Assembly: GCA_900470445.1 (NCBI GenBank)
Contig: UCAU01000012.1
Coordinates: forward strand, 62,001 to 126,000
From: Hyphomicrobiales bacterium
Lineage (GTDB): Bacteria; Pseudomonadota; Alphaproteobacteria; Rhizobiales; Devosiaceae
Reading direction: 5' to 3'
DNA: 64,000 nucleotides
The notes below the pieces were generated by a model. The model was not told the origin of the DNA, did no database searches, and was given only the letters and a program-made list of their open reading frames with translations. The position numbers were made by a program, and so were the translations under genes. Positions 1 through 64,000 of the stretch are shown here, one piece after another. Each line of letters opens with the position of its first letter. Within the stretch, counting starts at the first letter, position 1.

Positions 1-122
1 TCGCTCAGCGTCGAGAGCGGCAGCTCGGCGGAGACTTCGCCCGTGGCCGGATTGAACACCGGCACACGGCGGCCAGTCGAGACATAGCGTTTTCCGGCAA
101 CGGCGTTTTCGATAACGTTCAT
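1..122 (-). CDS. mmsA: Methylmalonate-semialdehyde dehydrogenase (CoA-acylating), N-terminal part
   Basis: Only the first 40 or so codons are in the window; the gene continues past the left edge. The reading begins MNVIENAVAGKRY and then has RRVPVFNPATGEVSAELPLS, the usual N-terminal strand of MmsA-type aldehyde dehydrogenases. This family converts malonate or methylmalonate semialdehyde to acetyl- or propionyl-CoA. The start codon shares one base with the stop of the upstream aminotransferase (TAATG), so the two are translationally coupled. Aminotransferase plus MmsA form a two-step route from beta-alanine or beta-aminoisobutyrate. The family call rests on the N-terminus and context only. 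Confidence 0.8.
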   Translation of the reverse strand, partial: MNVIENAVAGKRYVSTGRRVPVFNPATGEVSAELPLSTLS

Positions 123-1450
123 TATGCAATCCCCCGCAGCACCGTGCGAATACCGTCAATCAATTCGTCGATCTGGCCCTTGGAGATGATCAGCGGGGGA
201 GAGAGCGCAATGATGTCGCCGGTGGTGCGGATCAGGTAGCCACTTTCATAGGCGGCAAGGAAAGCCGAGAAGGCGCGCTTGGTGGGCGAGCCGGCAATCG
301 GATCAAGCTCGATGGCGCCGACCATGCCGATATTGCGAATATCGATGACATGCGGCTCGCCCTTGAGCGAGTGCAGCGCATCGGCGAAATAGGGCGCGAG
401 CTCCGCGCCGCGCGTCAGCAGGTCGTCCTGCTTATAGGTTTCGAGCGTGGCGAGCGCGGCGGCCGAAGCCACCGGATTGCCCGAATAGGTATAGCCGTGG
501 AAGAACTCGATGACATGCTCGGGGCCGCCCATGAAGGCATCGTGGATTTCCGGCGAAACCAGCACGGCGCCCATTGGGATAATGCCATTGGTCAGGCCCT
601 TGGCGGTGACCATGATATCGGGCGTGACGCCGAAATAGTCGGCGGCGAATGGGGTGCCAAGGCGCCCAAAGCCGGTAATGACCTCGTCAAAAATCAGCAG
701 GATACCGTGCTTTTTGGTGATGTCGCGCAAGCGCTGCAGATAGCCCTTGGGCGGGATCAATACGCCGGTGGAGCCGGCGACCGGCTCGACGATGACCGCG
801 GCAATGGTAGAAGCATCATGCAGAGTGACGATGCGTTCGAGCTCGTCCGCTAGGTCCAGGCCGTGCTCGGGCTCGCCCCGGGTAAAGGCGTTTTTGCTTA
901 GGTTATGGGTATGCGGCAGGTGGTCGACGCCGGTCAGCAACGTGCCGAACATTTTGCGGTTGGTGACAATGCCGCCCACCGAAATGCCGCCGAAATTGAC
1001 GCCGTGATAGCCGCGCTCGCGGCCGATCAGGCGGAAGCGGCTGCCATCGCCTTTGACACGATGATAAGCAAGCGCCACCTTGAGCGCCGTTTCGACCGAC
1101 TCAGATCCCGAATTGGTGAACAGCACATGATCGAGCCCCTTGGGCGCGATATCGACCAGCCGATTGGCCAATTCGAACGCCTTGGGATGGCCCATCTGGA
1201 AGGCCGGCGCATAATCGAGTTCGGCGGCCTGCTTGGCGATGGCCTCTACAATCAGCGGGCGGGCATGGCCGGCATTGACGCACCACAGCCCGGCGGTGCC
1301 ATCGAGCACCTGCCGGCCGTCCGAGGTGGTGTAATGCATGTCCTTGGCCGCCACAAACATGCGCGGCGATTTCTTGAATTGCCGGTTGGCCGTAAACGGC
1401 ATCCAGAAAGCGCTCAGATCGTTTGGCGCATTGTTTGTTGAGGTGGACAC
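122..1450 (-). CDS. Omega-amino acid (beta-alanine):pyruvate aminotransferase, class III PLP
   Basis: A complete 442-residue class III aminotransferase. The motif LLIFDEVITGFGRLG carries the PLP-binding Asp at about residue 255, and the Schiff-base lysine is in VTAKGLTNG (about K284). GLWCVNAGH near residue 55 is typical of omega-amino acid:pyruvate transaminases rather than ornithine or GABA enzymes. It should move the amino group of beta-alanine or beta-aminoisobutyrate to pyruvate, giving malonate-type semialdehydes for the overlapping mmsA product. It is transcribed away from a RutR-like regulator, with candidate RutR sites in the shared 133-bp gap. This suggests a role in pyrimidine or beta-alanine breakdown. 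Exact substrate is inferred. Confidence 0.9.
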   Translation of the reverse strand: MSTSTNNAPNDLSAFWMPFTANRQFKKSPRMFVAAKDMHYTTSDGRQVLDGTAGLWCVNAGHARPLIVEAIAKQAAELDYAPAFQMGHPKAFELANRLVDIAPKGLDHVLFTNSGSESVETALKVALAYHRVKGDGSRFRLIGRERGYHGVNFGGISVGGIVTNRKMFGTLLTGVDHLPHTHNLSKNAFTRGEPEHGLDLADELERIVTLHDASTIAAVIVEPVAGSTGVLIPPKGYLQRLRDITKKHGILLIFDEVITGFGRLGTPFAADYFGVTPDIMVTAKGLTNGIIPMGAVLVSPEIHDAFMGGPEHVIEFFHGYTYSGNPVASAAALATLETYKQDDLLTRGAELAPYFADALHSLKGEPHVIDIRNIGMVGAIELDPIAGSPTKRAFSAFLAAYESGYLIRTTGDIIALSPPLIISKGQIDELIDGIRTVLRGIA

Positions 1451-1475: not shown

Positions 1476-1492
1476 ATGACGTTATTGGTCAT
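1476..1492. promoter_or_regulatory. Inverted repeat ATGAC-N7-GTCAT (possible RutR-like site)
   Basis: A perfect 5-bp inverted repeat with a 7-base spacer lies 26 bp upstream of the aminotransferase start. Its right half TTGGTCAT resembles the RutR half-site TGGTCAA, but the spacing is one base longer than the consensus TTGACCA-N2-TGGTCAA. The same outline also fits the generic TGA-N9-TCA iron motif, so assignment is uncertain. Confidence 0.4.
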
Positions 1493-1532: not shown

Positions 1533-1548
1533 TTGACCAGTTGGAAAA
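1533..1548. promoter_or_regulatory. Candidate RutR operator TTGACCA-GT-TGGAAAA
   Basis: The left half is identical to the E. coli RutR consensus half-site TTGACCA, the spacer is two bases, and the right half keeps TGG. The site sits 36 bp before the preferred rutR start codon. It is therefore placed for autoregulation and for control of the divergent aminotransferase-mmsA operon. A site here also argues against translation starting further upstream at the TTG that overlaps it. Confidence 0.5.
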
Positions 1549-1583: not shown

Positions 1584-2303
1584 ATGCCGCCGATCAAGTT
1601 GAAAAGCTCTCCGTCGCCCGCCGCCGCCAAACGCCAGCACAAGGCGGCGGCGAAAGCAGCCACGCAGCCAAAGGAAAAACCCCGGCCGCTGACCCGGATT
1701 CAGCGGGAAAAACAGGACATTATCCTGGAAGCCGCGCTTGACGTTTTTTCTCTGCACGGCTTCCGCGGCGCCACGATCGACCAGATCGCCGAGGTGGCGG
1801 GCATGAGCAAGCCGAACCTGCTGTATTATTTCCCGCGCAAGGAAGAGATTCACCGCCGCCTGATCTCCGAATTGCTGGTTACCTGGCTGGCACCGCTGCG
1901 CGAAATGGATGCCGATGGCGATCCCTTCCCCGAAATCCGCTCCTATATTCGGCGCAAGCTCGAGATGGCGCGCGACTTTCCGCGCGAGAGCCGGCTCTTT
2001 GCCAATGAAATGCTGCAAGGCGCCCCGCGCATTATCGAGATGATCGAGGTTGATCTGAAAAACCTCGTCGATGAAAAGGCCGCGGTGCTGACCACCTGGA
2101 TGGACCAGGGCCGCATCGCGCGGACCGATCCCTATCACCTGATCTTTTCGATCTGGGCGACCACCCAGCATTATGCCGATTTCGACGTGCAGGTGCGGGC
2201 CGTGCTCGGCCCGGCGCGCGGCGGCGAGGGGCGCTTTGAAGATGCGGCGCGCTATCTCGAGCAATTGTTCCTCTATGGACTGACACCGCGCTCGAAGCGC
2301 TGA
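1584..2303 (+). CDS. rutR: TetR-family regulator, RutR-like
   Basis: A 239-residue regulator. After a basic, alanine-rich N-terminal tail comes a TetR helix-turn-helix (IILEAALDVFSLHGFRGATIDQIAEVAGMSKPNLLYYF). The C-terminal ligand domain (AVLTTWMDQGRIARTDPYHLIFSIWATTQHYADF) is of the RutR type, the uracil/thymine-sensing regulator of pyrimidine use. I chose the ATG at 1584 because AAGGCG precedes it and upstream TTG codons fall in a candidate operator. It diverges from the aminotransferase-mmsA pair, which can process the beta-amino acids released by reductive pyrimidine breakdown. Ligand identity is inferred. Confidence 0.75.
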   Translation: MPPIKLKSSPSPAAAKRQHKAAAKAATQPKEKPRPLTRIQREKQDIILEAALDVFSLHGFRGATIDQIAEVAGMSKPNLLYYFPRKEEIHRRLISELLVTWLAPLREMDADGDPFPEIRSYIRRKLEMARDFPRESRLFANEMLQGAPRIIEMIEVDLKNLVDEKAAVLTTWMDQGRIARTDPYHLIFSIWATTQHYADFDVQVRAVLGPARGGEGRFEDAARYLEQLFLYGLTPRSKR

Positions 2304-60647: not shown

Positions 60648-61040
60648 CTAGGACCTGGGCTCGATAAGGTCCCATTTATTGCCATAGAGGTCTTCGAATA
60701 CGGCGACGCTGCCATAAGGCTCATGCCGGGGTGCTTCGAGAAAGCGGACGCCGCGCGCCGTCATGGCGGCATGGGTGCCCGAAAAATCGTCAGTTTCGAG
60801 AAATAGCATGACCCTTCCGCCGGTCTGGTTACCGATGGCTTTACGCTGCTCGGGACCATCGGCGCGGGCCAGCAGCAGCCGCGCGCCATTCCCGCCCGGC
60901 GGCGCCACCAGGACCCAGCGCTTGCCCCCGCCCATATCGGTGTCGGCGAGCAGGGCAAAACCGGCCTGATCCCGGTAAAAGACTATGGCTTCATCATATT
61001 CTGCGACGAGCAGGGCGATTGTGGCGATTGAACTGGTCAT
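60648..61040 (-). CDS. VOC-family protein
   Basis: A 130-residue VOC protein: IATIALLVAEYDEAIVFYRDQAGFALLADTDMGGGKRWVLVAPP, VMLFLETDDFSGTHAAMTARGVRF and YGSVAVFEDLYGNKWDLIEP. The closing VFEDLYGNKWDLIE is typical. It lies 88 bp upstream of the aldo/keto reductase on the same strand. Its promoter region is shared with dppA, which diverges from it. Confidence 0.82.
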   Translation of the reverse strand: MTSSIATIALLVAEYDEAIVFYRDQAGFALLADTDMGGGKRWVLVAPPGGNGARLLLARADGPEQRKAIGNQTGGRVMLFLETDDFSGTHAAMTARGVRFLEAPRHEPYGSVAVFEDLYGNKWDLIEPRS

Positions 61041-61150: not shown

Positions 61151-61166
61151 TTGACCAAATGGTCAA
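61151..61166. promoter_or_regulatory. Perfect RutR-type operator TTGACCA-AA-TGGTCAA
   Basis: A perfect 16-bp palindrome identical to the E. coli RutR consensus TTGACCA-N2-TGGTCAA. It lies 99 bp before the dppA start and 110 bp before the divergent VOC gene. It is the best match to RutR in the window. Confidence 0.7.
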
Positions 61167-61265
61167 ACTGACCCATTGCGCTCCCCTAAATTCTACGCTT
61201 TGTTGGCGCCCAAGCTTCGGCCGGCAAACCGAACGCGCAAAAAACTTTCTCGGGAGACAACAATC

Positions 61266-62861
61266 ATGAAATTGATGACCACCCTGCTGGCGGCTTCGGC
61301 CATGCTGGCGCTGGCCGCGGGCGCCGCCCAGGCCAAGCAATTGGTATTCTGTTCGGAAGCTTCGCCTGCTCACTTCGATCCCGGTCCGACCACCGGCGGC
61401 AATGATTTCGACGCCTCCTCGCGCACCATCTATAATCGCCTGGTTGAGTTCGAAAAGGGCGGCACCGCCATCGAGCCGGGCCTGGCCGAAAGCTGGGCCA
61501 CCTCCGAGGACGGCAAGGAGATCACCTTCAAGCTTCGCCCCGGCGTCAAGTTCCACACCACGTCCTATTTCACCCCCACCCGCGATCTCAATGCTGACGA
61601 CGTGATCTTCAGCTTCGAGCGCCAGTGGAAGGAAGACAATCCGTGGTTCGCCTATCTCGAAGGCATGACCTGGGACTATTTCCAGGGCATGGACATGCCC
61701 AAATATATCAAGGAAATCGTCAAGGTTGACGATCTGACCGTCAAGTTCGTGCTCAACGAACCCAATGCCCCGATGATCGCCAACCTGGCCATGGATTTCG
61801 CGTCCATCGTGTCCAAGGAATATGCCGATCAGCTCGCAGCGTCCGGCGATCTGGCCGCCTTCTCGACCCAGCCGATCGGCACCGGCCCGTTCGTCTTCTC
61901 AGACTACCAGCTCGACACCGTCATCCGCTACCAGGCTTTCCCCGACTACTGGGCCGGCAAGCAGCCGATCGACGATCTGATCTTCGCCATCACCACCGAT
62001 CCGTCGGTGCGTGCCCAGCGTCTGCTGGCCGGCGAATGCGATATCATGCCCTATCCGGCGCCTGCCGATATCGCTCAATTGCAGGCTGATCCGAACCTGA
62101 CGGTTCTGGAGCAGGAAGGCCTCAATATCGGCTACATGTCCTACAACACCACCGAGCCGCCGTTTGACAATGTCAACGTGCGCAAGGCCCTCTCCATGGC
62201 CGTCGACAAGGCTGCCATCATCGAGGCGGTGTACCAGGGTGCTGGCCAGGACGCCAAGAACCTGATTCCGCCCACCATGTGGAGCTACAACAACAATATC
62301 CCCGCCGACAAATATGATCCGGAAGCCGCCAAGAAGCTGCTCGAGGAAGCCGGCGTAACCAACCTCACCACCGATCTCTGGGCCATGCCCGTGTCGCGTC
62401 CTTACAATCCCAACGCCCAGCGCGTTGCCGAACTGATCCAGGCCGACTGGGCGGCGATTGGCGTTACCGCCAATATCGTCTCCTACGAATGGACCGAATA
62501 TCGCGAGCGCGGCAAGCAGCCCGACCGCAAGGGTCCGTTCCAGATCGGCTGGACCGGCGACAATGGTGATCCGGATAACTTCTTCGCGACCCTCTTCTCC
62601 TGCTCGGCCATTGGCGTGTCCAACTATTCGAGCTGGTGCAATCAGGAATTCGAAGACCTGATCCAGAAGGCCAAGACCACTCCCGACCAGGCCGAGCGCA
62701 CCGCGCTCTATGAAAAGGCCCAGGAAGTGTTCAAGGCCGAAGAGCCCGCCCTGACGCTGGCTCACTCGAAAGTGTTCATGCCCATGAACAAGCGCGTCAT
62801 CGGCTTCAAGATGGACCCGCTGGGCATTCACCGCTTTGACGGCGTCGACGTCGCCGAGTAA
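61266..62861 (+). CDS. dppA: Dipeptide ABC transporter substrate-binding protein
   Basis: A 531-residue family-5 binding protein. Signal peptide about residues 1-23 (AQAK). KQLVFCSEASPAHFDPGPTTGGNDFDASSRTIYNRLVEFEKG, PGLAESWATSEDGKEITFKLRPGVKFH and NADDVIFSFERQW are typical DppA blocks. Two cysteines (FCSE and SSWCNQ) may form the DppA disulphide. GGGAGA precedes ATG 61266. A strong hairpin separates it from dppB. Its promoter carries a perfect RutR-type operator, so the transported compound may be linked to pyrimidines. Confidence 0.93.
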   Translation: MKLMTTLLAASAMLALAAGAAQAKQLVFCSEASPAHFDPGPTTGGNDFDASSRTIYNRLVEFEKGGTAIEPGLAESWATSEDGKEITFKLRPGVKFHTTSYFTPTRDLNADDVIFSFERQWKEDNPWFAYLEGMTWDYFQGMDMPKYIKEIVKVDDLTVKFVLNEPNAPMIANLAMDFASIVSKEYADQLAASGDLAAFSTQPIGTGPFVFSDYQLDTVIRYQAFPDYWAGKQPIDDLIFAITTDPSVRAQRLLAGECDIMPYPAPADIAQLQADPNLTVLEQEGLNIGYMSYNTTEPPFDNVNVRKALSMAVDKAAIIEAVYQGAGQDAKNLIPPTMWSYNNNIPADKYDPEAAKKLLEEAGVTNLTTDLWAMPVSRPYNPNAQRVAELIQADWAAIGVTANIVSYEWTEYRERGKQPDRKGPFQIGWTGDNGDPDNFFATLFSCSAIGVSNYSSWCNQEFEDLIQKAKTTPDQAERTALYEKAQEVFKAEEPALTLAHSKVFMPMNKRVIGFKMDPLGIHRFDGVDVAE

Positions 62862-63040: not shown

Positions 63041-64000
63041 ATGCTCAATTACATTCTGCGCAGACTTGCGCTGATCGTGCCGACCATTGTCGGCATTTCC
63101 ATCTGTGCTTTTGCTTTTGTCCGGGTGCTGCCGGGCGACCCCATCCTGGCCATGGCTGGCCAGCATGGCGTGACGCCGGAGCGCTACGAAATCCTGCGCG
63201 AACAGTTCGGCTACAATCTGCCGATCTGGCAGCAATATTTCAATTATCTGGGCGGCGTCCTGCAGGGCAATTTCGGCGTCTCGCTGGCCACCAAGCGCCC
63301 CGTCATCACCGAATTCATGACCCTGTTCCCCGCCACGATCGAACTGGCCCTGGTCGCCATGTTCCTGGCGGTCATCATCGGCATACCCGCCGGCATCTTT
63401 GCCGCTGTCAAGCGCGGCTCCTGGTTCGATCAATTGACCATGGGCGTGGCGCTGACAGGCTATTCCATGCCCATCTTCTGGTGGGGCCTGCTGCTGATCA
63501 TCTTCTTTTCCGGCTATCTGGGCTGGACGCCGGTTTCGGGACGCATCGCGCTCTCCTTCTTCCTGCGCCCCATTACCGGCTTCATGCTGGTCGATACCCT
63601 GCTCTACGGCAATTGGCCGGCCTTCGTTTCGGCTTTGCGCCATCTGATCCTGCCCGCGGTGGTGCTGGGCACCATCCCCCTGGCGGTCATCGCGCGGCAG
63701 ACCCGTTCGGCCATGCTTGAAATCCTGGGCGAAGACTATGTGCGTACCGCCCGCGCCAAGGGCATGTCGCCCCGCCGCGTGGTCAATGTGCATGCTCTGC
63801 GCAATGCGCTGATCCCGGTGGTCACCACGATTGGCCTGCAGGTGGGGCTGCTCATGGGCGGCGCCATCCTCACCGAAACCATTTTTTCCTGGCCGGGCAT
63901 CGGCAAATGGATGATCGATTCCATTTCCAAGCGCGACTATGTCGTCGTGCAATCGGGGCTCTTGCTGATCGCGCTCATCGTCATGGCGGTGAACCTGCTG
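63041..64000 (+). CDS. dppB: Dipeptide ABC transporter permease, partial at the right edge
   Basis: The first 320 codons are present. MLNYILRRLALIVPTIVGISICAFAFVRVLPGDPI is the DppB N-terminus; QFGYNLPIWQQYFNYLGGVLQGNFGVSLATKRPV and the coupling loop YVRTARAKGMSPRRVVNVHALRNALIPVV follow. Most of the six-helix permease is in view; the last few residues are missing. It belongs to the dppABC-type operon continuing past the window. Confidence 0.93.
   Translation, partial: MLNYILRRLALIVPTIVGISICAFAFVRVLPGDPILAMAGQHGVTPERYEILREQFGYNLPIWQQYFNYLGGVLQGNFGVSLATKRPVITEFMTLFPATIELALVAMFLAVIIGIPAGIFAAVKRGSWFDQLTMGVALTGYSMPIFWWGLLLIIFFSGYLGWTPVSGRIALSFFLRPITGFMLVDTLLYGNWPAFVSALRHLILPAVVLGTIPLAVIARQTRSAMLEILGEDYVRTARAKGMSPRRVVNVHALRNALIPVVTTIGLQVGLLMGGAILTETIFSWPGIGKWMIDSISKRDYVVVQSGLLLIALIVMAVNLL

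Follow-up and report, generated by a model that had tools for sequence, protein, structure and literature searches.

What does a perfect palindrome in front of a dipeptide transporter operon do, and which regulator would bind it? The question was raised by a 64,000-nucleotide stretch of a Devosia genome (referred to here as the window), in which the palindrome lies about 60 kb from a gene for a RutR-like regulator. The initial annotation had taken the two for operator and regulator, and had proposed that the transporter imports compounds other than dipeptides alone. We examined both proposals by comparison with related genomes.

A perfect palindrome precedes the dpp operon

The features at this end of the window are as follows.

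61151..61166, no strand: candidate RutR-type operator TTGACCAAATGGTCAA, a palindrome (motif scan and conservation at dppA)
61266..62861, plus strand: dppA-like gene for a dipeptide-binding protein of 531 aa (PF00496; NF043070; E. coli DppA the best match in PDB)
63041..64000, plus strand: dppB-like permease gene, running off the window (gene calls, named by eye)
60648..61040, minus strand: divergent gene of the glyoxalase/VOC family (PF00903, 60 bits; start at 61040 taken from the translation)

We observed that TTGACCAAATGGTCAA is a perfect palindrome across its 14 defined bases. It sits in the gap between dppA and the divergent VOC-family gene, and 99 bp separate its end from the dppA ATG (61266). 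Genes resembling dppC, dppD and dppF follow dppB beyond the window (gene calls, named by eye). The binding protein scored 694.1 bits against NF043070, under the cut-off of 1005, and is therefore named DppA-like.

The exact palindrome was present as first described, and it is the sole exact match to TTGACCA-N2-TGGTCAA in the whole 4.8-Mb genome. Base composition predicts 9e-5 exact matches per window and 0.007 per genome, in agreement with the earlier statement that such a match is unlikely by chance. When up to two mismatches were allowed, the count in the genome rose to 57, compared with 22 for the reversed control, and many of these further matches lay inside genes or before genes without an evident pyrimidine role. 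The motif alone is thus unspecific at two mismatches. The window itself held four matches at up to three mismatches, a number that was reached by 9 of 100 shuffles, so that the exact match and its conservation carry the case. Readings of the palindrome as a CRP/FNR-type or a sigma-54-type site were dropped, since the half-site spacing does not fit the consensus sequences of these sites.

TTGACCA-N2-TGGTCAA was given in the initial annotation as the published E. coli RutR consensus; this literal form was not found in the open-access literature searched. The best match to the motif in the E. coli rutA-rutR gap was TGGACTAAACGGTCAA, with three mismatches. RutR is described as binding a palindrome of about 16 bp (PMC10891134).

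The site is conserved at dppA in Devosia and its family

The congeneric sample consisted of 29 dppA loci, namely our own and those of the 28, out of 36 congeneric genomes, that have a dppA orthologue at the threshold (27 of the loci were among the best 30 of 37 matches, and those for G009 and G025 came from separate readings). All 29 carried the motif, 27 of them exactly and two (G016 and G021) with one mismatch, and its first base lay 107-131 bp upstream of the matched dppA start. Mean pairwise identity over 27 dppA loci was 96.7% in the 16-bp site as against 53% in the 30-bp flanks. Judged from these alignments, strong purifying selection acts on the putative operator in front of dppA in all the Devosia genomes read. 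Among the named genomes, 36 Devosia dppA loci gave 29 exact sites, four with one mismatch, two with two and one locus without upstream DNA; these come largely from the same genomes as the congeneric sample and are thus not independent of it.

The dppA genes of G009 (L136) and G025 (L138) were split over two frames, which may reflect a broken gene or an assembly error; the site was nevertheless exact in both. A short stem-loop with co-changing arms was also seen by eye in the Devosia dppA leader (61198-61268 of the window); the stem was not recovered when 14 loci were folded with RNAalifold.

The wider family contributed 23 additional dppA loci (taken from the best 30 of 42 matches), of which 21 had a site at two or fewer mismatches and two (L269 and L275) had none at this threshold. 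Outside the family, the site was found in none of the three dppA relatives of a first sample, and none of 44 dppA loci of other organisms (mostly Mesorhizobium; also Ensifer, Halomonas and others) had one with fewer than three mismatches. Conservation upstream of dppA in relatives was the check that the initial annotation had set for its reading; the site was conserved in Devosia and in its family, but not beyond the family. Since it is present in Devosia and in nearly all family loci and absent from the loci read outside, the link between dpp and the site probably arose in Devosia's family and has been kept since.

The RutR-like regulator lies beside a pyrimidine-degradation operon

At the other end of the window we found the following.

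1..121, minus strand: end of a semialdehyde-dehydrogenase-like gene (gene calls, named by eye)
122..1450, minus strand: gene for an AptA-type omega-aminotransferase, the beta-alanine step (NF052567, 752 bits; cut-off 500)
1476..1492, no strand: a repeat earlier called related to the operator (readable in the sequence; the stretch is variable across 29 aligned loci)
1533..1548, no strand: half-degenerate operator candidate TTGACCAGTTGGAAAA with two mismatches, in the gap between aptA and the RutR-like gene (motif scan)
1584..2303, plus strand: gene for a RutR-like regulator of the TetR family (PF08362, 167.9 bits; cut-off 25; E. coli RutR the best match in PDB)

The protein encoded at 1584 is the only PF08362 protein of its genome. 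It scored under both NCBI cut-offs for RutR (230.7 of 368 bits for TIGR03613 and 213.2 of 230 bits for NF011584), and we therefore call it RutR-like and not an E. coli-type RutR equivalog. In E. coli RutR, uracil is described as being held by W77, Y97, W167, Q171 and Q179 (PMC10891134). The Devosia protein keeps all five of these residues as well as the DNA-contact lysines K52 and K62. The uracil-pocket residues were identical in all 30 rutR-like loci read (our own and 29 congeners, the best 30 of 36 matches), and the two lysines were kept there as well.

Leftwards, past the edge of the window, the gene calls include an ABC transporter as well as a ureidopropionase-like amidase and a dihydropyrimidinase, all identified by eye. 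The amidase and the dihydropyrimidinase of G035, which are 95% identical to our own, pass the TIGR01879 and TIGR02033 cut-offs. By its gene families, the operon beside the RutR-like gene encodes those steps of reductive pyrimidine degradation that start from dihydrouracil.

The partial match at 1533-1548 proved to be real: the site was kept in 30 of 30 congeneric rutR-like loci, letter for letter in 27 and as close variants, likewise two mismatches from the motif, in the other three. A further 28 rutR-like loci of the family all had an upstream site with up to three mismatches. The repeat at 1476-1492 fared differently. It varied among the 29 loci aligned (one of the 30 was left out), so that it is probably no operator, and we rejected it as one. 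Around the rutR site, a block at 1529-1560, AATTTTGACCAGTTGGAAAAATGTTAGCACTC, was conserved past the operator, and the next 14 bp were 86% identical on average.

The motif accompanies pyrimidine genes and the RutR family

We counted the motif across 41 Devosia genomes and found 50 exact copies in 34 of them, against three for the reversed control; seven genomes had none. By neighbour, 30 of the copies were at dppA, 11 at an F420 locus, four at cydAB-DUF1127-like genes and three at cpdB, with one at another SBP5-type gene and one inside a gene. The four copies in the third of these groups (L119, L120, L127 and L134, from 4 of the 41 genomes) lie between cydAB-like and small DUF1127-like genes, as named by eye. 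In our own genome, the sites differ from the motif by no mismatch at dppA, one at cpdB and two each at the FGD-like gene, at the TIGR03842 gene and between rutR and aptA.

CpdB is a 2',3'-cyclic nucleotide phosphodiesterase/3'-nucleotidase by family match (NF006938 over its cut-off, TIGR01390 under its own), and is located in the periplasm. A site with two or fewer mismatches lay within 300 bp of cpdB in 24 of 30 loci (the best 30 of 38). At the FGD-like genes such a site was found directly at FGD in 26 of 30 loci (the best 30 of 34), and the other four have the TIGR03842 gene first, with its own site. Seven Devosia genomes bear preA, and TTTATCAATTGGTCAA, with two mismatches, precedes preT in all six readable loci among them; the G018 locus, whose upstream DNA is missing, was left out. 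Here the name preT reflects the gene's position ahead of preA; its scores against the families fell short of the cut-offs.

Does the motif belong to the RutR-like protein? As RutR is found in 78 of 81 genomes of the family, presence or absence against the site is uninformative there. Of 120 genomes of the order, 59 have PF08362 (56 over the cut-off). The exact motif was found in 11 genomes, and ten of these have PF08362 (Fisher p 0.004, with kinship ignored); 49 of the 59 PF08362 genomes are without the exact motif. The exact motif adjoins a PF08362 gene in three other genera (G075, G130 and G088). In G075 it lies between an AptA-type aminotransferase gene and two PF08362 genes, with a dihydropyrimidinase gene nearby, a layout that resembles that of the window. 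In other genera, a site with two or fewer mismatches lay near the gene at 16 of the 30 PF08362 loci read; six of these 30 loci showed no helix by pattern and were anchored at the frame start, and L172 had no usable frame. Several relatives outside Devosia (L186 10462-11807 and L187 6410-8026) also have two adjacent PF08362 regulators. One has a recognition helix of the SKPNLLYYF type and the other of the PKANLHYYF type, and paired sites often lie upstream of the latter.

The dppA site could also be occupied by another regulator with a motif that matches that of RutR by coincidence, as members of the TetR family often share similar palindromes. The genome G053, which is the one exact-motif genome of the order without PF08362, and the mere half-match at the RutR-like gene's own site would both fit such a regulator. 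We consider it unlikely, since the same motif recurs at preT, at cpdB and in the pyrimidine-operon gap within the genus, and at PF08362 genes in other genera. Furthermore, both dppA sites read in the genus g86 have the right half TGGAAAA, as at rutR, and no TetR-family gene was seen by eye beside the dpp operon.

Taken together, the comparisons make the initial observation stronger than was first claimed, and support well the identity of 61151-61166 as an operator of the RutR family. The proposed tie between the regulator at 1584 and the dpp operon 60 kb away is supported by the conservation of the site and by the sites at pyrimidine genes. We conclude that the RutR-like repressor encoded at 1584-2303 very probably has 61151-61166 as an operator, through which it would control dppABCDF.

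The importer and its substrate

From the co-regulation with pyrimidine genes, it had been suggested that the transporter takes pyrimidine-derived or beta-amino compounds rather than dipeptides only. G001 might be read in the same way: it has no dppA at the threshold, and another SBP5-type binding protein (L128 4001-5697) carries the exact site there. In E. coli DppA, R383 is reported to hold the carboxyl end and D436 the amino end of the dipeptide, and reversing both charges abolished dipeptide binding (PMC12136057). We observed that the equivalents of both residues are kept in our own DppA-like protein and in all 32 full-length Devosia DppA proteins (four short or frameshifted ones were set aside), and that the best PDB matches are dipeptide-binding proteins. 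This leaves the suggestion unsupported, and an importer of pyrimidine derivatives seems to us improbable. DppA most likely carries ordinary dipeptides. With both end-clamping residues kept, a dipeptide importer under pyrimidine control would be the simplest reading, and one that suits the sequence better than import of pyrimidine derivatives.

The site lies in a divergent gap, and it could therefore serve mainly the VOC gene with dppA as a bystander. In G001, VOC-like and aldo/keto reductase-like neighbours (named by eye) persist beside the different transporter, as this would predict. In G093, however, which is of another genus, the exact site stands before dppA with no VOC gene called alongside, and a binding protein of a transporter adjoins the site every time in the loci read. 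We give the VOC gene as main target a somewhat smaller probability than either alternative above. A chance palindrome or a mere -35 box, which TTGACC resembles, was rejected as practically negligible, given the 9e-5 matches expected per window, motif counts in excess of the reversed control, the conservation of both half-sites while the flanks drift, and the lack of a matching -10.

An F420 gene cluster may take the place of preA

Our own genome has no match to PreA, though the later pyrimidine steps are present. It does have an F420 cluster (C43:85419-91803, equal to L016 4420-10804), which comprises a member of the deazaflavin nitroreductase family, FGD (TIGR03554), CofE, an ABC transporter and a TIGR03842 protein. 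Across the 41 Devosia genomes we found PreA in seven and an FGD-like gene (TIGR03554) in 34. Only G029 has both, and only G016, which is 62% complete, has neither; this near-exclusion gave a Fisher p of 1e-5, with kinship ignored. A CpdB tree of 31 genomes shows five changes for preA and four for F420, which implies several switches. Independent pairs showed three opposite changes, one without difference and none in the same direction, too few for significance. Judged by DppA, which is 97% identical, the nearest other species is G035. Its genome carries preTA next to rutR and lacks an FGD-like gene; our own genome shows the opposite pattern.

Among relatives, 31 of the 34 F420 loci were read (L394-L413 and L423-L433; G061 and G062 were left out, and our own was read separately). 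All 31 encode relatives of our own FGD, CofE and TIGR03842 proteins, with 86-93% identity for TIGR03842. At two or fewer mismatches, a site was present at the operon in 31 of 31 and just before the TIGR03842 gene in 30 of 31. Our own TIGR03842 protein scored 480.6 bits over a cut-off of 295.45, which places it in a family of F420-type LLM oxidoreductases, and its nearest matches in PDB are F420-dependent methylene-tetrahydromethanopterin reductases. An AlphaFold model of it had a mean pLDDT of 48 and was not used. CofE, the F420 biosynthesis gene scored, reached 227.8 bits for TIGR01916, over its cut-off of 180.65, and 290.1 bits for NF009810, under its cut-off of 304.

There are precedents for such chemistry. 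In mureidomycin biosynthesis, reduction of the C5-C6 bond of the uracil ring is described as needing a predicted F420/FMN oxidoreductase, with genetic support; the authors report no activity for it in vitro (PMC10714638). For Chloroflexota, an F420-dependent reductase has been proposed that acts on a purine-derived ring (PMC12507026). F420-dependent reduction of uracil to dihydrouracil as such was not found in the open-access literature. Based on the near-exclusion with preA, the RutR-type sites, the kinship of the TIGR03842 protein and these two precedents, we predict that uracil degradation in most Devosia relies on an F420H2-dependent reductase instead of the NAD-dependent dihydropyrimidine dehydrogenase, a prediction that we hold to be about evenly balanced. 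In this route FGD would make F420H2 and CofE would tail the cofactor. The TIGR03842 protein would reduce uracil to dihydrouracil, to be fed to the dihydropyrimidinase encoded beside rutR. The sites may thus mark out a RutR-type regulon with one potentially new enzyme.

Beside the F420 genes lies a cluster resembling one for nucleoside salvage (C43:73546-85337; L184, L016), with a RihC/UriH-like nucleoside hydrolase and a TRZ/ATZ-type deaminase, both below the cut-offs, as well as an amidase and NMT1-like binding proteins (by eye). In several genomes a MYG1-like gene (L117 4130-5086 and homologues, by eye) diverges from the F420 operon across the operator; it had no NCBIfam match at 1e-5.

A proposed role in scavenging

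How would the operator work? We infer repression rather than activation from the behaviour of the family, because a promoter scan recognised no sigma-70 promoter near either the dppA site or the rutR site. When pyrimidines are lacking, a dimer of the RutR-like protein would bind the operator and hold dppABCDF down, and uracil or a close product would release it. Dipeptide import, periplasmic nucleotide hydrolysis by CpdB and pyrimidine breakdown would then rise together. Such a response may amount to a scavenging programme for the material of dead cells, as free uracil would mark lysed cells, where nucleic acid and protein are both available.

The locus is of interest as a genus-wide and sharply conserved case in which a pyrimidine sensor is apparently wired to peptide import, and this link points to uracil as a cue for dead-cell scavenging. 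With the operator as a guide, it also yields a new enzyme prediction, that of F420-dependent uracil reduction in an alphaproteobacterium.

Comparison with known systems

The Devosia regulator resembles E. coli RutR in its C-terminal domain (PF08362) and in its uracil- and DNA-contact residues. The putative operator is again a palindrome of about 16 bp, and the gene again lies beside genes of pyrimidine degradation. Unlike E. coli RutR, the Devosia protein is under the NCBI equivalog cut-offs, its neighbours are genes of the reductive pathway and not rutA-G, and its proposed regulon would take in dpp, cpdB and the F420 cluster. A comparative-genomics study of 68 genomes describes RutR regulons that average about 11 genes and a motif that varies between taxa; its main text contains no 'dppA', and its one 'dipeptide' concerns HypR (PMC5343134). 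RutR in Devosia, or RutR with dipeptide-import or cpdB targets, was not found in the open-access literature.

The transporter is like E. coli DppABCDF in having a binding protein of the same family with the R383/D436 pair (PMC12136057), and in Devosia the dpp operon is preceded by the putative RutR-type operator. The predicted reductase has its closest likeness in the biosynthesis of mureidomycin and napsamycin, where a predicted F420/FMN oxidoreductase acts on the uracil ring (PMC10714638). That system makes an antibiotic, whereas the Devosia enzyme would be catabolic and under the control of RutR.
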